A DNA stretch of 64,000 nt from Acidimicrobiia bacterium (GTDB lineage: Bacteria; Acidobacteriota; Terriglobia; Bryobacterales; Bryobacteraceae): positions 62,001 to 126,000 of the forward strand of contig VFZE01000010.1 of assembly GCA_016871315.1 (NCBI GenBank), written 5' to 3'. Numbering within the stretch: position 1 is the stretch's first letter; each line of letters starts with the position of its first letter. This document shows positions 41,151 through 49,358 of this stretch, in pieces. The notes beneath the pieces were generated by a model. It was not told the DNA's origin. It saw only the letters and a list, made by a program, of their open reading frames with translations, and did no database searches. The position numbers and the translations under genes were made by a program.

Positions 41151-41885
41151 ATGAAGAAGATTGTTCTCATCGAGGACGATGCCGACCTGTTCGCGCTCCT
41201 CAAATACAACCTCGAAAAGGAAGGCTTCCAGCTCACTGGAGCACAGACCGGTAAAGGCGCCATAGACCTCTGCCTCCGCGAACGCCCGGACCTCATCCTG
41301 CTCGACATCATGCTCCCCGATTCCGACGGCCTCGACATCTGCCGCGGCATCCGCAACCATCCCGAGCTTACCCACACACCCGTTATTTTCCTCACCGCCC
41401 GCGCTTCGGAGACAGACCGCATCGTCGGCCTCGAACTCGGCGCCAACGACTACGTCGTCAAACCATTCTTCATCCGCGAGCTGATCGCCCGCATCAAGAT
41501 CCAGTTCCGCGGCGGCGGCGCACCCGCCAAAGTCCTCAAGTGCGGCGCCCTCGAACTTGACCGCAACCGCTGCCGCGTCACCCGCGAAGGCAAAGCCCTC
41601 TCCCTCACCGCAACCGAGTTTCGTCTCCTCGAATTCCTCATGAGCCGGCCCGGCGTTGTCTTCACCCGCGAGCAACTGCTCGACGCCGCCTGGGGGCAGG
41701 ACCGCAACGTCACCGACCGCACCGTCGACGTCTACATCCTCCGCCTTCGCCAGAAAGTCGAACCCGACCCCGCCAACCCCAGCCTCATCCGCAGCCTCCG
41801 CGGCTTCGGCTACAGTTTTCACGATCCCACCGCCGAACAGACCTCGGAAACCGAAACCGCCTCCTCACACCACCGGGCGCTTTAG
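41151..41885 (+). CDS. PhoB/OmpR-family response regulator
   Basis: Two-domain response regulator of 244 aa, partner of the preceding kinase. The receiver domain has the acidic pair EDD near residues 8-10, the phosphorylation site Asp52 in LLDIMLP, and the lysine in VVKPF near 102. The C-terminal winged helix contains LTATEFRLLEFLMSRPG and TVDVYILRLRQKVE. The stop overlaps the stop of the convergent MoaD-like gene by 4 bp. Codon use is strongly C-ending, like the kinase gene. Confidence 0.92.
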   Translation: MKKIVLIEDDADLFALLKYNLEKEGFQLTGAQTGKGAIDLCLRERPDLILLDIMLPDSDGLDICRGIRNHPELTHTPVIFLTARASETDRIVGLELGANDYVVKPFFIRELIARIKIQFRGGGAPAKVLKCGALELDRNRCRVTREGKALSLTATEFRLLEFLMSRPGVVFTREQLLDAAWGQDRNVTDRTVDVYILRLRQKVEPDPANPSLIRSLRGFGYSFHDPTAEQTSETETASSHHRAL

Positions 41886-42178
41886 CCGGACAAACAATCT
41901 TCCTCGCAGGACTGTCGGCCGCCTTTGATGGCGGTGAGGAAGTGGACCTCACTCGTTGGAGAGACTTTTTCAAGCAGGCCGAGGGGGGAGATTTCGCCGT
42001 CGACGGCGACGGAGATGTTGGGGCGGAGGCGGTCGTCTTCAGTGAGGCGGGCGGCGAGGCCGGGGTGGAGTTGGTCAAGCGCGGCGATGAGGTCGCGGAT
42101 GGTTGCTCCAGAAGCTTCGATTTTCGAGAGGCCGCCGGTGAGATCTTGCAGGAGCGTGGGGATGAAGACGACGGCCAC
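41882..42178 (-). CDS. MoaD/ThiS-like protein with C-terminal tail
   Basis: Ubiquitin-like beta-grasp protein of 98 aa, related to MoaD and ThiS, which carry sulfur as a C-terminal thiocarboxylate. VVFIPTLLQDLTGG opens the domain, and HFLTAIKGG would be the normal end. The GG is followed by eleven residues, RQSCEEDCLSG, so it is not at the C-terminus and would need cleavage before activation. It is last in the molybdenum-hydroxylase operon, 9 bp after the large subunit, which suggests a role in that enzyme's cofactor. Starts with GTG at 42178. Confidence 0.8.
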   Translation of the reverse strand: MAVVFIPTLLQDLTGGLSKIEASGATIRDLIAALDQLHPGLAARLTEDDRLRPNISVAVDGEISPLGLLEKVSPTSEVHFLTAIKGGRQSCEEDCLSG

Positions 42179-42187
42179 TTTAACCGA

Positions 42188-44431
42188 TCAGGGCTTGCGC
42201 CAGACGGCTTCCATGACGGCGGGAGGATTCATGGGAAGGCGGCGCATGCGGACGCCGGCGGCGCGGTAGATGGCGTTGGCGATGGCGGCGGGCGGCGGGA
42301 CGATGTTGGCTTCGCCGACGCCGCGGACTCCGAACGGATGAGCGGGGTTGGGGACCTCGACGATGTGTGTGTCGATCATCGGCAGGTCGAGCGAAGTGGG
42401 CATGCGGTAGTCGAGCAGCGAGGAGTTTTGCATGACGCCGTCGGCTGACATGTAGTACTCCTCGTTGAGCGCCCAACCGATGCCTTGCACGCTGCCGCCC
42501 TGCATCTGACCTTCGACGTAGCTGGGGTGGATGGCGCGCCCGGCGTCCTGGAAGCTGGTGAAGCGGAGTATTGTTGTCTTGCCGGTGTCGGGATCGACTT
42601 CGACGTCGGTGATGACGCCGGAGAAGGAGCCGCCGACGCCGCGCGGGTTGATGGCGGCGCGGCCGACGACGGGGCCTCCGGTTTCACCGAGCTTGGCGGC
42701 GAGTTCGGCGAAGGTAGCCGATTTTCCATTGCAGGAGTAGACGCCGCGCGAGTGCTTGACTTTGTCGGCTGTTGTTTCCCAGAGCGCGGCGGCGCGCTCC
42801 TTGATCTGGCGGACGACGTCCTGCGCGGCATCGTGAGCGGCCCAGCCGGTGGCGAAGGTGGTGCGGCTGCCGCCGGTGACGGCGGTAAAGCCGATGGAGT
42901 CGGTGTCGACAACAGAAGGCAGTACGGATTCGGCGGGGAGGCCGAGGACTTCGGCGGCCTGCATGGCGATGGAGGTGCGGGTGCCGCCGATGTCGGTGGA
43001 GCCCTCGACAAGATTCACGGTGCCGTCGGCGTTGACGGCGATGTTGACCGAAGAGGGCAAGCCGACGTTGAACCAGAAACCGACGGCGACGCCGCGGCCG
43101 CGGTTGGGGCCTTCCAGCGGCGCTTTGTAGTGCGGGTGGTTCTTCATCGCCTCCAGCACTTCGACGCAGCCGATCTTGCGGTACTTGGGACCGTCGGCGC
43201 GGCGCGTGCCTTCCTTGGCGGCGTTGCGCAGCCGAAGTTCGATGGGATCGATGCCGAGCGTCTCGGCCAGCTCATCGACGACGCTTTCGGTGGCGAAAGC
43301 GGCGTTGCTTGCGCCGGGAGCGCGATAGGCGGCGGTGGAGGGCTTGTTGACGCAGACGTCGTAGCCGTCGATAGTGATGTGGTCGATGTCATAGGCGGCA
43401 AAGACGCACATGGCGCCGGGGCCGACCATGGAGCCGGGATAGGCTCCGGCTTCATAAGCTAGCGTGGCCTGGGCGGCGGTGAAGCGGCCGTCCTTGGTGG
43501 CGCCGATCTTCACTTTGATCGAGGAGCCCGGTGTGGGACCGGTGGCTTCGAGCACGGCCTGGCGCGGCATCACGATCTTGACGGGGCGGCCGGATTTCTT
43601 CGACAGCAGCGCGGCGACGGGTTCAAGATAAACGGGGATCTTGCCGCCAAAGCCGCCGCCAATTTCCATGGGCGTGACCTTGACCTGCGAGACGGGCAGG
43701 TCAAGCACGCAGGCGGTGACGTCGCGCACGACGAAGGAGCCTTGTGTGGAGCACCAGACCAGCACGCGGCCATCGTTGTTCCACAGCGCCGTGGCATTGT
43801 GGGGTTCGATGTAGCCCTGGTGGACGGTGGCGGTGGAGAATTCGCGCTCGATGATCTTGTCGGCCAGCTGGAAGCCGTCCTCAACGGCGCCCTTGACGTG
43901 GCGGAAATGTTCGGCGACGTTGCCCGGCTTGTCGGTGGCTTCGCCGAGCTCCTTCATGCGGAGGTCATCGTGGAGGATGGGAGCGCCATCCTTCATCGCA
44001 TCGGGCGCGGTGAGTACGCAGGGGAGCGGCTCGTATTCGACTTCGATCAGGGAGGCGGCCTCCTCGGCGATGTGGACGTTGGTGGCGGCGACGGCGGCGA
44101 CGGCGTGACCCTTGTAGAGGACCTTGCCGCTTGCGAGCATGTTGCCGCGGACATAGCTGAGCGGAGTGTCGCCTTCGCCGAGGTCGACGATGCGGTCGGG
44201 GGTAACGGGGAAGTCGGCGGCGGTAATGACGGCCTTGACGCCGGGGAAGGCTTCGGCTTTGGAGGTGTCGATGCGCTTGATGCGCGCGTGGGCGTGCGGG
44301 GAGCGGAGGACGAAGCCGTGGATGAGGCCGGCGAGTTGAATGTCGGCGCCATACAGCGCGCGGCCGGTGACTTTGTCGGCGCCGTCGTGGCGGACGGGTC
44401 GCGTGCCGACAACTTGAAACTGAGAACTCAT
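42188..44431 (-). CDS. Molybdenum hydroxylase large subunit (XDH/CoxL family)
   Basis: Molybdopterin-binding large subunit, 747 aa, of the xanthine dehydrogenase/nicotinate dehydrogenase/CO dehydrogenase group, which hydroxylates a carbon with water. Seen are RHDGADKVTGRALYGADI at the start, EIGGGFGGK near residue 230, AYRAPGASNAAFATES near 350 and FGVRGVGEANIVPP near 710, whose Glu is the catalytic base in this family. The CO dehydrogenase VAYRCSFR loop is absent, so CO is not the substrate; an N-heterocycle or aldehyde is likelier. The ATG at 44431 overlaps the stop of the Fe-S subunit by 4 bp. Confidence 0.9.
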   Translation of the reverse strand: MSSQFQVVGTRPVRHDGADKVTGRALYGADIQLAGLIHGFVLRSPHAHARIKRIDTSKAEAFPGVKAVITAADFPVTPDRIVDLGEGDTPLSYVRGNMLASGKVLYKGHAVAAVAATNVHIAEEAASLIEVEYEPLPCVLTAPDAMKDGAPILHDDLRMKELGEATDKPGNVAEHFRHVKGAVEDGFQLADKIIEREFSTATVHQGYIEPHNATALWNNDGRVLVWCSTQGSFVVRDVTACVLDLPVSQVKVTPMEIGGGFGGKIPVYLEPVAALLSKKSGRPVKIVMPRQAVLEATGPTPGSSIKVKIGATKDGRFTAAQATLAYEAGAYPGSMVGPGAMCVFAAYDIDHITIDGYDVCVNKPSTAAYRAPGASNAAFATESVVDELAETLGIDPIELRLRNAAKEGTRRADGPKYRKIGCVEVLEAMKNHPHYKAPLEGPNRGRGVAVGFWFNVGLPSSVNIAVNADGTVNLVEGSTDIGGTRTSIAMQAAEVLGLPAESVLPSVVDTDSIGFTAVTGGSRTTFATGWAAHDAAQDVVRQIKERAAALWETTADKVKHSRGVYSCNGKSATFAELAAKLGETGGPVVGRAAINPRGVGGSFSGVITDVEVDPDTGKTTILRFTSFQDAGRAIHPSYVEGQMQGGSVQGIGWALNEEYYMSADGVMQNSSLLDYRMPTSLDLPMIDTHIVEVPNPAHPFGVRGVGEANIVPPPAAIANAIYRAAGVRMRRLPMNPPAVMEAVWRKP

Positions 44432-44904
44432 GCGTTCACCTCCGTGGCGCATTGCTTCACGGCGCGGACGATCTTGTCGTAGCCGGTGCAGCGGCAAAGA
44501 TTGTTGGCGAGCCACAAGCGGATGCGCTCTTCGCTGGGGTTTGGTTCGGCGTCGAGCAAGGCTTTTGCGGCGACGAGGAACCCGGGGGTGCAGACGCCGC
44601 ACTGAAGGGCGGCGTTTTCAAGAAACGCCTGCTGGAGCGGGTGAAGCTTGTGGCCCTCGGCGATGCCTTCAATGGTGGTGATCTTGCGGCCTTGCGCCTC
44701 GACACCGAGGACGAGGCAGGAGGTGACGATGCGGTCATCGAGCACGACGGTGCAAGCGCCGCAGTTGCCGTCGTTGCAGCCTTCCTTGGTGCCGGTAAGG
44801 CCGAGGATGTCGCGGAGGCATTCGAGCAGAGACTGGCGGGGTTCGCATAGGAACTCGACGGGTTCGTTGTTGATGGTGGCCTGTACGTGAACTTTCTTGT
44901 GCAT
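44428..44904 (-). CDS. Molybdenum hydroxylase 2Fe-2S subunit
   Basis: Small subunit of 158 aa that transfers electrons from the molybdenum centre to FAD. The plant-type [2Fe-2S] motif is CNDGNCGACT with a fourth Cys in TSC near residue 63. The second cluster is CGVCTPG and NNLCRCTGY near 105 and 140. The ATG at 44904 has a strong AGGAGG Shine-Dalgarno. The stop of the FAD subunit is 1 bp upstream and the large subunit overlaps by 4 bp, so all three are translationally linked. Confidence 0.93.
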   Translation of the reverse strand: MHKKVHVQATINNEPVEFLCEPRQSLLECLRDILGLTGTKEGCNDGNCGACTVVLDDRIVTSCLVLGVEAQGRKITTIEGIAEGHKLHPLQQAFLENAALQCGVCTPGFLVAAKALLDAEPNPSEERIRLWLANNLCRCTGYDKIVRAVKQCATEVNA

Positions 44905-44905
44905 G

Positions 44906-45772
44906 TTATTTGGCCTCCTGGGCCCGCTGGATGGCTTGCTTGAGGGCTCGCGCGGTGAGGACGGCGCAGAGGTGCCGGCGGTATTCGGCGGTGCCGCGCA
45001 TGTCGGTGATGGGAGATGCGGCTGCTTTGGCCAGTTCGGCGGCGGTTTGGATGCAGGCGTCGTTGACGGGCTTGCCGGCCAGGGAGTCGCCGGCCTGTTT
45101 CGCGTAGAGCGGCGTGGGGGCGACGGCGCCGAGCGCGATGCGCACCGACTGGAAGTTGCCGTTGTTGAGTTCGACCGAGACGCCGGCGCCGGCGACAGCG
45201 ATGTCCATTTCATTGCGCGGGATGAAGCGGAGGTAGGCGGCGCCGGAGTGGGGTTTCGGCGGCGGCAGGTGTAGCGAGACGAGAAGCTCGCCTTGCTTGA
45301 GGACGGTTTTCCCGGGCGCGGTGCAGAACTCTTCCACCGGAACAGTGCGTTCGCCTGAGGGGCCGGCGATGCGGCAGATTGCGCCAAGCGCGATGAGCAA
45401 TGGGACGGCGTCTGCGCTGGGGGCAGCGTTGCACAGGTTGCCTCCGATGGAGGCGCGGCCCTGTATTTGCGTGCCCCCAATGAGCGAGGCGACATCGGAC
45501 AAGGCGGGATAGCCGCGGGCGATGTCGCGGTGGTTGTAGATGCGGTAGCAGGGAACGGCGGCGCCGAGCCTGAGGCCGGAAGCATCGAGAACGAGCTGAT
45601 TGAGCTCGGCGATGTTCTTGATGTCAATGACGAGATCGGTCTGCTTGCGGCCGGCTCGCATTTGAACAAGCAAGTCGGTGCCGCCGGCGAGCAGCAGGGC
45701 TTGCGAGTTCTCCCGCAGGAGTTTCAGGGCTTCAGAGAGAGAGGATGGGGCGGAGTAATCAAACCATTTCAC
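44906..45772 (-). CDS. Molybdenum hydroxylase FAD subunit
   Basis: FAD-binding subunit of 288 aa (CoxM/XdhB-type). FAD loops are LLLAGGTDLLVQMR near residue 28 and TQIQGRASIGGNLCNAAPSAD near 105; the C-terminal domain (MDIAVAGAGVSVEL) is complete. The frame starts with GTG at 45772. It is first in the operon FAD, Fe-S, large subunit, MoaD-like. A decayed 5' fragment of a paralogue of this gene lies at 49388-49444. Confidence 0.92.
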   Translation of the reverse strand: MKWFDYSAPSSLSEALKLLRENSQALLLAGGTDLLVQMRAGRKQTDLVIDIKNIAELNQLVLDASGLRLGAAVPCYRIYNHRDIARGYPALSDVASLIGGTQIQGRASIGGNLCNAAPSADAVPLLIALGAICRIAGPSGERTVPVEEFCTAPGKTVLKQGELLVSLHLPPPKPHSGAAYLRFIPRNEMDIAVAGAGVSVELNNGNFQSVRIALGAVAPTPLYAKQAGDSLAGKPVNDACIQTAAELAKAAASPITDMRGTAEYRRHLCAVLTARALKQAIQRAQEAK

Positions 45773-45940: not shown

Positions 45941-48508
45941 TCAACGCTCGCGCGAGACTCTCCGGAACTGCCAGACGGACGGCCGCCCCGTGTGCATGCC
46001 TGCCACGATCTTGCCGTCCCGGTCCCAGCCCACCCAATGCACATCCCCGTCGGTCTCTACGGGAATCCTGCCGATCTCCCCCGTCGCCGGATCGATGATG
46101 CACGCCTCCCAGTACCAGATCCTGGGAGAAGCGCCCGCGACGGCAATCCGGCCATCCGGCCCCACCGCATTCGGCGCCAGCGGCAGCATGGTCAGCCGGT
46201 AATCTCCCTTGAGCGGAATCTCCTGTTCACGCCCGCTGGCGGCGTCGACGCGAAACAGGTGAAACCGTTCCTGCTGGTTGGACTGAATCACAATTTCCCG
46301 GCTGCGGGGATCAGACGCCACAAAGTCGCCCGCGCGGATCTTCCGCGGCTCGCCGCCGGTGGCCGGGACGGCCCAGACTGTTCTTTCCGAGACGTAATAC
46401 AGCGTCGCGCCGTCGCTGGAAACGGCTAGGCTCTGGATTGAATTCGCGCCCAAGGTGCTCAGGGGAAGCCTGCGCAGAATCCGCCCGCCAGCCACCGTCG
46501 CGATGGCGACGGCGCGCCTGTCCGGCGGGCCCATCAGGAAAGCTACATCCCGTTGCCCGGCCAGCGCCGCAGGATACGACGTTTCCTCAGTGCTATCCAC
46601 GAATGGTTGCGGGCTGCCCGACCTGCCCGCCAGGATCAGCCGCTGCCGGTCTCCCAGCGGATATGGCATGAGCACGCGGCCGTCCGGGACCGGGATCGCG
46701 AAGGCTCTGCCCGTGATTTCCGGCGAGGTTGCGATCCGCTCGGTGGCCCCGCCGGAGGCGGAGAAGCGCAGCACCTCCACCGGCATCTGGAACTGATCAA
46801 CATACAGACTGCCGTTAGGGCCCGCGTCCATCCCGATCACTTCGCTCTGCAGCGTGATGCCGGTGGGCAGGGGCTCTCCGCCGCTGCGGGCGATGGCGAC
46901 CACGCGCGAAATCTTGCCGGCGGTCAGCACGTTGTATACGAGTTCCCCATCGGTGGAAATCGCGAATAGGCTCGATGCGCTTCTGGCAAGCAGGCGGGAA
47001 CGGCCCGTTTCCAGGTTTATGGCAAACAGGCCGTCCTGCCCGGCCGCGCTCCCCGGCTCTGTCGGCCGGCCGAAGTAAACTGCTTCCCTGCCGTCGGGGA
47101 ATGCGCGGACCAGTCCGATGGGCGCCAGCGTTTGCGGAATCTGCGCCGGTAGCGGTGCAAGACGGCCGCTGGACGGGTAAAAGCGGTGGACCTGCCAGTG
47201 CCTGTCCGCATTGATCCGGATCACCAACAGGCTGCCATCCGGGAGCGCCTCCGGTCCCATGGCTCTCTCCAGCACAAGCCGCTCTTCCCCGCCCAGCGCC
47301 GGAATGCTGTACACTCCTTGCGGGCCGTCGGTCATACGGTCAAAGTAGAGCCGGGTCCCGTCGGCCGACCAGGTCACTCCCTGAATCGGGGCCAGTCCCT
47401 TCTTGTGCGTGAGCAGTGTCCAGTTTCCCGACTCCGGCTTCATCACCGCCAACTGCGAGGTCCGGTCCACAAAGGTCACGAAGGCCAGGGTGCTGCGGTC
47501 CGGAGACAGGCGCGGAGCCATGGCGGACGGCGGCCCTCCGAGCATCGAGCCCTCCCAGACCGCGGGAGCCGCGGGCAGCCAGAGAAGCTTGCCTCCCAGT
47601 GCGCCGGCTCCAATGAGAACCACGGCGGCCAGCGCCGCCAAGGCCGGTCTTCGCCATGGCGGTGGGACGTCGGCCGGAGCGGCTGCTCCCTCTTGCTGCG
47701 GCTGCCAGAGCGCACGCAATGCGAACGCCAGGTCGCTGGCCGACTGGAAGCGCCGGCCCGGGTCCTTTTCCAGGCAGCGGGCTACAATCCGGCGTAACGC
47801 CACGGGCACCGCCGCCGGCAGTTCCGGCGGCTCGTCGTTCGCAATGGCCGCCATGCTCTCGGCCGCGGTCGGGCGGCGGAAGGCCCGCTGGCCCGAGAGA
47901 AGCTCGTGTAGAACCACGCCAAAGCTGAAAATGTCGGAGCGGAAATCTGCGGCAGAGCCGCGGACCTGCTCCGGGGACATGTAGCCGGCGGTTCCTAGGA
48001 CCACGCCCGGCTCGGTCGCGTGCGCCGTCATCGTCGGATCATCCGGCTGGGACGAGTCGATCCTTGCCAGACCGAAATCGAGGATCTTGGCGTGGCCGTC
48101 ACGCGTGGTCATGATGTTGGCGGGTTTCAGGTCCCGATGGGTGATTCCGGCCGCGTGCGCGGCCGCAAGCCCTTCGGCCACTTGCGCCGCGATATCCACA
48201 GCGGACCGCATGCGCAGGCCGGAGCCCGTGATGGGTGAGCCCTCAACCAGCTCCGTGATGAACCAGTTTTCGCCCACGTCATACAGGGAAACAATGTTGG
48301 GGTGCTTGAGCGCGGCCACCGCGCGCGCCTCCTGCTCGAAGCGGGCGCGCCGCCGTTCATCGCCCGCCACCTCCTCCGGCAGAATCTTCAACGCCACCTC
48401 ACGTTTCAGGCGGGTGTCGCGGGCGCGGTAGACTTCGCCCATGCCCCCCGCTCCGAGCGGGGCGATGATTTCATACGGGCCGAAACGGGTTCCGGCGGGC
48501 AAGGGCAT
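45941..48508 (-). CDS. Ser/Thr protein kinase with extracytoplasmic beta-propeller
   Basis: Hanks-type kinase fused to a sensor, 855 aa. The kinase domain covers about residues 10-275: GAGGMGEVYRARD glycine loop, Lys41 in VALKILPE, HRDLKPAN (124-131), DFG (144-146) and the APE-like SPEQVRG. One TM segment (LAALAAVVLIGAGALGGKLLWL) lies near 290-312. The rest has WD40/TolB-like repeats (LSPDRSTLAFVTFVD, WSADGTRLYFDR, VSSDGATLYYVSE), probably outside the membrane as a binding platform. Common in Acidobacteriota. A TATAAT (48524-48519) lies 10 nt before the ATG. Confidence 0.93.
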   Translation of the reverse strand: MPLPAGTRFGPYEIIAPLGAGGMGEVYRARDTRLKREVALKILPEEVAGDERRRARFEQEARAVAALKHPNIVSLYDVGENWFITELVEGSPITGSGLRMRSAVDIAAQVAEGLAAAHAAGITHRDLKPANIMTTRDGHAKILDFGLARIDSSQPDDPTMTAHATEPGVVLGTAGYMSPEQVRGSAADFRSDIFSFGVVLHELLSGQRAFRRPTAAESMAAIANDEPPELPAAVPVALRRIVARCLEKDPGRRFQSASDLAFALRALWQPQQEGAAAPADVPPPWRRPALAALAAVVLIGAGALGGKLLWLPAAPAVWEGSMLGGPPSAMAPRLSPDRSTLAFVTFVDRTSQLAVMKPESGNWTLLTHKKGLAPIQGVTWSADGTRLYFDRMTDGPQGVYSIPALGGEERLVLERAMGPEALPDGSLLVIRINADRHWQVHRFYPSSGRLAPLPAQIPQTLAPIGLVRAFPDGREAVYFGRPTEPGSAAGQDGLFAINLETGRSRLLARSASSLFAISTDGELVYNVLTAGKISRVVAIARSGGEPLPTGITLQSEVIGMDAGPNGSLYVDQFQMPVEVLRFSASGGATERIATSPEITGRAFAIPVPDGRVLMPYPLGDRQRLILAGRSGSPQPFVDSTEETSYPAALAGQRDVAFLMGPPDRRAVAIATVAGGRILRRLPLSTLGANSIQSLAVSSDGATLYYVSERTVWAVPATGGEPRKIRAGDFVASDPRSREIVIQSNQQERFHLFRVDAASGREQEIPLKGDYRLTMLPLAPNAVGPDGRIAVAGASPRIWYWEACIIDPATGEIGRIPVETDGDVHWVGWDRDGKIVAGMHTGRPSVWQFRRVSRER

Positions 48509-48566: not shown

Positions 48567-49358
48567 CTAACTCAGCAACTCGACGTGGTCTCCCGAGCGG
48601 ATCTTGCCCTCGACCAACACCGCCCCGTAGATACCGGCCTTGCCCTCGTGCAGCCGGGCAAGCAGCCGCATGATGTCGGGGTTGGCCTTCCCTGTCTCCG
48701 GATCCAGCGTGATCATCTTGCACCTTGCGTCTCGATCCACCACTCTGATCTCCACCTTGGCGCCGATCCGGAGTGTCCGGCCAACAAAGCCATCCTCTTC
48801 AAAGCCCGTCTGGGATGCAAGCTCGATATAGACATTCGCTCGAAAACACCTCTTGTCTAGTTCAGCGCCAACCTCCGACCCAAGTTGCCGCACAGTCTGC
48901 ATGGAGAACAGCGAGATCGGGCGGCAATCGGTCATCGCCCGATGGGAACATAGCAAAGTCACCTCCGGCGCATCACTCATGCGCCCGCTCAGAACGCGGA
49001 TCAACCGGGGATCGTCAATAGCCAGCGTTTCCCCTGCCGGCGTGCGGACATCCACCATCATCTCGGCGGAATCTGCGTATAACGGGGTGAGTCCGGAAAC
49101 GATGGCCTCGGCCTCCGCAAAATTGGTTGGTTTCGCCATCGGCTCGGGATGCCGATAGACCGGCTGGTACAAGAGCATTTCCTCCTCCTCTCGACCGGTC
49201 AGAAAGGGAAAACCTTTCGGTGAGCTGGAGCTGCGAAATGCGTAGAGGCGGTCCCCATAGACACCAGCGAACCCGACGAAGGCCTCCATCAATTCTTCGC
49301 CACGCATGCTCTTGACCGGATACCGCCATAGACTTTCTACCTTGCCAACGATTCCCAT
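48567..49358 (-). CDS. MOSC-domain protein (YcbX-like)
   Basis: Protein of 263 aa with an N-terminal MOSC beta-barrel (VESLWRYPVKSMRGEELMEAFV) and a C-terminal MOSC domain carrying the conserved cysteine in DRDARCKMITLDPETG near residue 215. MOSC proteins bind molybdenum cofactor and include mARC-type reductases of N-hydroxylated compounds, but the ferredoxin partner domain of E. coli YcbX is absent. An AAGGAG Shine-Dalgarno precedes the ATG. It lies close to several molybdenum enzyme genes. Confidence 0.85.
   Translation of the reverse strand: MGIVGKVESLWRYPVKSMRGEELMEAFVGFAGVYGDRLYAFRSSSSPKGFPFLTGREEEEMLLYQPVYRHPEPMAKPTNFAEAEAIVSGLTPLYADSAEMMVDVRTPAGETLAIDDPRLIRVLSGRMSDAPEVTLLCSHRAMTDCRPISLFSMQTVRQLGSEVGAELDKRCFRANVYIELASQTGFEEDGFVGRTLRIGAKVEIRVVDRDARCKMITLDPETGKANPDIMRLLARLHEGKAGIYGAVLVEGKIRSGDHVELLS

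Follow-up and report, generated by a model that had tools for sequence, protein, structure and literature searches.

The window analysed here, a stretch of 64,000 nt from a draft genome of the Bryobacteraceae (166 contigs), contains on its minus strand a gene of 98 codons for a CysO-like beta-grasp protein of the ThiS/MoaD family (positions 41882 to 42178). Translation starts with GTG at position 42178 and stops with TAA at 41884-41882, and the encoded protein ends with HFLTAIKGG followed by RQSCEEDCLSG. Gly86-Gly87, predicted to form the C-terminus of the mature protein, are encoded at positions 41918-41923, and the 11 codons of the tail, predicted to be a disposable extension, occupy positions 41885-41917 of the same strand. 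A MoaD/ThiS-like ORF with a GG located 11 residues before its end had been noted in a preliminary description of this DNA, and its strand, its coordinates and the in-frame position of the tail were all borne out. The translation also agrees with the CxxxC pair described for the tail. Since the two other reading frames do not contain a stop codon close behind the GG, a simple frameshift fails to explain the tail and was rejected as its origin.

The carrier gene, as we will call it, is preceded on the minus strand by three genes encoding a hydroxylase of the xanthine dehydrogenase (XDH) family. These are, in the direction of transcription, the genes for the FAD-binding subunit (44906-45772), the [2Fe-2S] subunit (44428-44886), both recognized by profile matches, and the molybdenum-binding large subunit (42188-44431; PF02738, PF20256 and PF01315). 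For the latter, 44431 was deduced as the start because the gene would then overlap the FeS gene by ATGA, while the mechanically called ORF begins at 44602. With a gap of 9 nt between the Mo-subunit ORF and the carrier gene, the order FAD-FeS-Mo-carrier in the window is in line with the earlier suggestion that the carrier gene is the last one of a molybdenum hydroxylase operon. The subunits match several NCBIfam enzyme models, every score being below the cut-off. A response-regulator gene on the plus strand (41151-41885; profile match) is in the convergent orientation and overlaps the end of the carrier gene by 4 nt; we regard it as a neighbour outside the system. Approximately 3 kb upstream of the operon and on the same strand, a MOSC-domain protein is encoded (48567-49358), separated from the operon by a protein kinase/PD40 gene (45941-48508). 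No MOSC match was found in the 30 related stretches that were searched.

The assignment of the carrier to its family relies on a Pfam ThiS match (PF02597, 38 bits at a curated cut-off of 22.5), which covers residues 6 to 87 and stops at the GG, and on a predicted beta-grasp fold with Foldseek matches to CysO, SAMP1, MoaD and Urm1. The encoded C-terminus deviates from the family, in which it is formed by the GG, because 11 residues follow; once trimmed, the protein would conform in this respect as well. The scores with the NCBIfam models of SAMP1 (NF041918, 29.9 bits) and archaeal MoaD (TIGR01687, moaD_arch, 28.3 bits) are under the respective curated cut-offs of 60 and 49.5. The structural model, for which 14 sequences were used, has a mean pLDDT of 86.6 with values of at least 90 at 77 of the 98 residues, and residues 85-98, comprising the GG and the tail, are predicted with pLDDT below 50. 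The CysO structures 4n6e and 3dwg are the nearest PDB entries by sequence and by fold; SAMP1 and MoaD follow behind them. Judged from these matches, the carrier is nearer to CysO than to canonical MoaD.

Relatives of the carrier were collected from 237 Bryobacteraceae genomes, 53 of which gave a match at E <= 1e-12, and from GTDB contigs (28 loci). After removal of second copies (L069-L073, L076 and L077), the 81 locus identifiers correspond to 74 distinct loci; tails were read from family matches at E <= 1e-12, plus L010. The protein stops at the GG in 33 of the 74 loci, continues for 1-3 residues in 24 and for 4-20 residues in 15, so that a tail of any length is present in 39. The remaining two are L036, whose gene is cut off by the end of the contig, and L094, which has no GG. 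The other 72 loci were chosen with a pattern that required a GG, and the proper figure for its conservation is therefore 72 of the 73 loci whose end can be read. In L094 (818-1021) the reading diverges ahead of the GG and other frames offer no rescue, suggesting a decayed gene or an assembly fault. One of the 72, L096 from Streptomyces (40% identity, 1-residue tail), was kept out of the tree and out of the codon and basic-residue counts described below.

In contrast to the GG, the tails have little in common. Among the 15 tails of at least 4 residues, 55 of 754 compared positions are identical (7.3%), while shuffling within tails yielded 8.3 +/- 1.0%. The drift is visible also in single pairs: L015 and L016 share 66 of 87 core positions and one of 10 tail positions, and the window protein and that of a relative of the same genus (G001) share 57 of 87 core positions and three of 11 tail positions. 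The latter tail agreement is the highest among the pairs looked at and is possibly a remnant of common origin. The CxxxC pair is confined to the window tail among the 15, and a conserved CxxxC was therefore rejected. The homologues thus do not have the same tail, for which the preliminary description had proposed to look.

The distribution of tails over the relatives is scattered. Mapped on a tree that was built from 71 cores, the presence of a tail of at least 4 residues (15 rows) needs 13 changes, the mean for shuffled labels being 13.8, with 160 of 500 shuffles as low. The tree is based on 87 columns, contains many open forks and its bootstrap is not settled, but at least 4 of these changes are forced by well-supported branches. 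A lysine or arginine is found directly before the GG in 12 of the 15 long-tailed rows and in 10 of the 56 others (Fisher, 1.4e-5). From the sequences it is possible that this reflects a preference of a cleavage site, which is inseparable from kinship; since only three independent pairs lie on supported branches, the basic residue stays a hint. Regarding the origin of the tails, a single substitution would turn the first codon after the GG into a stop codon in 14 of 38 tailed genes, compared to 32 of 151 later tail codons, and in the window this codon is CGA, one base from TGA. These codon counts are suggestive of tails that arose by loss of a stop codon.

Further proteins of this kind are encoded in the window genome. 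A third ThiS-type paralogue (L003) ends at the GG, while its closest counterpart among three proteins compared in G001 (L010; 40% identity to L003 and 35% to the window protein) has the tail TGFDAASV. Assuming orthology, this paralogue may behave like the carrier, tail-less in one species and tailed in the other. A fifth, weak match to the ThiS family, barely above the cut-off, is located inside a 780-residue open frame (G000:C26:29859-29942, plus strand). The sole MoaE that we found forms the second part of a fusion protein, following a MoaD that terminates in GG (L098:6558-7307, minus strand, contig C12). This fusion looks like the MPT synthase of the genome, and its MoaE could after cutting serve the carrier as partner.

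A JAMM protease gene, the presence of which should be checked according to the preliminary description, does exist in the window genome. One strong Prok-JAB gene is located on contig C11 (PF14464, 83.9 bits), in addition to one weak match just above the cut-off. The strong one reads FHSHPNEDAYFSSTD behind KECCG and shows the pattern E..HSH-x7-S-x2-D, which we take to be the expected JAMM motif. The gene order on C11 is CysM, JAMM, CysO ending with GGF, and an E1 with ThiF and rhodanese domains. Thus, the genes that mark a CysO of the CysM/Mec pathway (CysM, JAMM and E1) adjoin this CysO paralogue instead of the window carrier. The carrier has in turn two properties of a JAMM-processed ubiquitin-like precursor, 11 residues encoded past the GG and, in the same genome, a JAMM with a presumably intact motif. 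An operon of the type CysM-JAMM-CysO-E1/rhodanese, with an acidobacterium among its entries, is given in row 4c of Table 1 of PMC1779556.

We also inspected CysO genes beside JAMM genes in other Bryobacteraceae. Among the matches listed, 29 of 31 scanned loci had a CysO match (not L056 and L059), corresponding to 28 distinct genes, as L002 and L006 carry the same one. None of these 28 listed genes ends at the GG. In 18 of them one to five residues follow, the tails being partly alike: a lone R is the tail in 7 of the 18, and manual reading gave VW for L065. The other 10 of the 28 listed genes run in frame into the E1, and these continuations are 67-83% identical to the ThiF-rhodanese E1 of the window genome over the part that was read, which in all ten extends to the end of the DNA examined. 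In these ten fusions (L040, L041, L043, L044, L045, L048, L051, L054, L058 and L064) a sulfur carrier, CysO, is joined to its own activating enzyme. Among the relatives inspected, it thus seems common practice that a buried GG has to be exposed.

The occurrence of JAMM genes in the genomes turned out to be uninformative with respect to trimming. They are present in 216 of 237 Bryobacteraceae genomes (E <= 1e-12), in all 32 genomes with a homologue of the window protein at a loose cut-off (in G001 weakly), and in 18 of the 19 genomes behind the contig loci. Being nearly universal in Bryobacteraceae, JAMM fails to distinguish species with a tail from those without, and co-occurrence was discarded as a test. 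In G001, which has a 20-residue tail and whose assembly is 86% complete, there are weak JAB matches, none of them of the C11 type, and the 1.8 Mb genome of G254 (tail KSCR) gave no JAMM match; both cases may be draft gaps or signs of another protease. Inside the hydroxylase operon, no JAMM was detected in the 30 stretches searched. On a Dehalococcoidia contig, a JAMM match (L078:442-687, minus strand) is located approximately 5 kb from the carrier gene. In the same-genus relative, G001, a weakly JAB-like ORF with HTHPAG (L136:1094-1746, minus strand) lies beside a small ORF that by eye appears ubiquitin-like, and the two are perhaps a separate ubiquitin-like operon.

The link between carrier and hydroxylase is well conserved. 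In 71 of the 74 loci, the carrier gene has a homologue of the Mo-subunit gene upstream and in the same orientation; for L009, L029 and L096 none was found in this position, even when longer stretches were included. The complete order FAD, FeS, Mo, carrier is present in 23 of the 28 GTDB contig loci, which belong to Acidobacteriota and to the SAR202/Dehalococcoidia, and the operon with its terminal carrier gene thus recurs in Acidobacteriota and Chloroflexota. In five loci from Chloroflexota (L074, L075, L085, L091 and L092) a tandem pair of Mo-subunit genes precedes the carrier gene. It is likely that the carrier is dedicated to the hydroxylase, where it may provide sulfur for molybdopterin, provide sulfur for the sulfido ligand, or modify the enzyme. 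XdhC/CoxI is the usual sulfuration partner of such enzymes, and the presence of an XdhC/CoxI gene in the window genome therefore speaks slightly against the carrier as the supplier of the sulfido sulfur.

Based on these observations, we consider it probable that the gene product is the precursor of a ubiquitin-fold sulfur carrier with Gly87 as its mature end. The 11-residue tail would have no function of its own and would have originated when the stop codon after the GG was lost or moved. A protease would remove it after the GG, the best candidate being the JAMM metallopeptidase of the CysM-JAMM-CysO-E1/rhodanese cluster on C11. With the GG freed, the E1-rhodanese protein could adenylate it and convert it to the thiocarboxylate, and the thiocarboxylated carrier would serve the hydroxylase of its own operon, most likely by supplying sulfur for the cofactor. 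The trimming, the JAMM as the cutter and the purpose of the sulfur are the parts of this explanation that we infer. Constraint that ends at the GG and drift beyond it fit a disposable extension, and since the tails of relatives are either dissimilar or missing altogether, removal of the tail is the most likely outcome.

Removal of the tail after the GG by another protease or by a carboxypeptidase is a rather unlikely alternative, for which the two tailed species mentioned above could be quoted, G001 without a C11-type JAMM and G254 without any, although the former genome is 86% complete and the completeness of the latter (1.8 Mb) is not stated. A loose protease would suffice for tails that are dissimilar as a set and, in the window, predicted to be disordered, and for MoaX, which needs cutting after Gly82, the excerpt of PMC4326299 does not identify the protease. 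On the other hand, JAMMs are the enzymes reported for such cutting in several organisms, as far as the excerpts of the papers cited below extend. It is quite improbable that the protein retains its tail, carries no sulfur on its GG and instead contributes to the structure or assembly of the hydroxylase. The Mo-subunit homologue upstream in 71 of 74 loci would suit such an assembly factor too, and L094 has no GG, but an unused GG should decay, and it is present in 72 of the 73 ends that can be read, although the sequence beyond drifts; moreover, 33 of the 74 loci stop exactly there.

The same comparison argues against a tail with its own function, which should persist. The preliminary description had offered a regulatory or metal-related role as the alternative to trimming by a protease, and metal binding or redox control via the CxxxC would be its concrete form. 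Indeed, a CxxxC is improbable in one 11-mer assembled at random from the pooled residues of the other 14 tails (P ~0.006), but the probability of meeting it in at least one of 15 such tails is ~0.07, and that of any C-x(1-5)-C is ~0.28. With identity among tails at the level of shuffled sequences and the CxxxC in one of 15, the functional tail did not hold up, and we regard it as very improbable. Between the two branches, trimming by a protease is the likely one, with indirect support from the conserved GG ahead of drifting tails, from the JAMM gene of the genome and from the 28 listed JAMM-linked CysO genes that all extend past the GG, and the metal-binding or regulatory tail is the unlikely one. 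A sequencing error, frameshift or gene decay is extremely improbable as the source of the tail. The window genome is a draft, many of the relatives are metagenome drafts and L094 looks broken, but the other frames have no stop close after the GG, the core is conserved and its structure model is confident. The combination of homologues ending at GG with an artefactual tail had been named as the case against a genuine extension; its first half applies to 33 of the 74 homologues, while the second does not, given checked frames and tails in 39 loci.

If the precursor explanation is right, the sulfur carriers of this lineage are made as precursors, and the tails are free to drift since they are discarded. 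Precursors of much the same kind are known for eukaryotic ubiquitin and SUMO. Within one cell, the JAMM of the CysO cluster would act on two more substrates, and the hydroxylase operon would possess a carrier of its own. It is tempting to speculate that one JAMM frees the carrier, CysO and MoaD, and that the carrier belongs to one hydroxylase clade spanning two phyla, to whose cofactor it delivers sulfur or which it tags reversibly; this extended proposal is unlikely, but if true, sulfur flow could be controlled jointly through the release of precursors. For genome annotation, the precursor explanation would also imply that short tails behind a GG should be taken neither for frameshifts nor for functional motifs.

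Among known systems, CysO of Mycobacterium and Amycolatopsis (3dwg, 3dwm and 4n6e) is the best match of the carrier by sequence (4n6e, E 1.4e-9) and by fold (TM 0.84/0.93), with the GG in register. Its own genes are located beside CysM and JAMM, whereas the window carrier follows a Mo hydroxylase, and the two solved chains that were compared end at the GG, while the carrier extends 11 residues further. MoaD of molybdopterin synthase (E. coli, 1fm0) has the beta-grasp fold and the molybdenum-enzyme context in common with the carrier and is more distant (18% identity). According to the excerpt of PMC3227635, the E1-rhodanese MoeZR sulfurates MoaD as well as CysO. MoaX and the MoaD-MoaE fusion of D. 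radiodurans, as described in the excerpted sources, contain a buried GG that needs exposure, as in the carrier; there the extension is a partner domain, here a short unconserved tail, and a fusion like that of D. radiodurans is also present in the window genome. DRJAMM cleaves MoaD-MoaE (PMC8832034, in excerpt), and HvJAMM1 cleaves SAMP1-MoaE after the C-terminus of SAMP1, freeing active MPT synthase (PMC4443979, in excerpt). The cutting of linear fusions by HvJAMM1 is reported in the same part of PMC8832034 to be independent of the diglycine, and therefore the conservation of the GG favours its use after the cut rather than JAMM as the cutter.

The closest precedents for the tail itself are CsUb-pre of C. 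subterraneum and SAMP1 of H. volcanii which, judged from the excerpts, share with the carrier an extension behind the GG and a JAMM in the genome. In the excerpt of PMC6043591, which concerns archaeal JAMMs, a JAMM removes nine residues after the GG from the CsUb precursor, CsJAMM cleaves SAMP precursors and spares CsUb-pre, and CsRpn11 leaves SAMP precursors uncut, showing that JAMMs can be selective. In comparison to these precursors, the window carrier is bacterial, is linked to a hydroxylase operon, has tails that vary by species, and its cutting is predicted. In the part of PMC1779556 considered here, JAB proteins are absent from the thiamine and MoCo pathways surveyed, and row 3 of its Table 1 places a MoaD gene beside aldehyde ferredoxin oxidoreductase. 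This is a parallel for a MoaD-type gene tied to one Mo/W enzyme, although of another enzyme family than the three-subunit XDH-type hydroxylase of the window. A limited literature search returned no description of a MoaD-type gene in an XDH operon, which is weak evidence of absence. In summary, the maturation of ubiquitin-like proteins by JAMM is already known, and a carrier that is tied to an operon and whose tails drift seems to be a new form of it.
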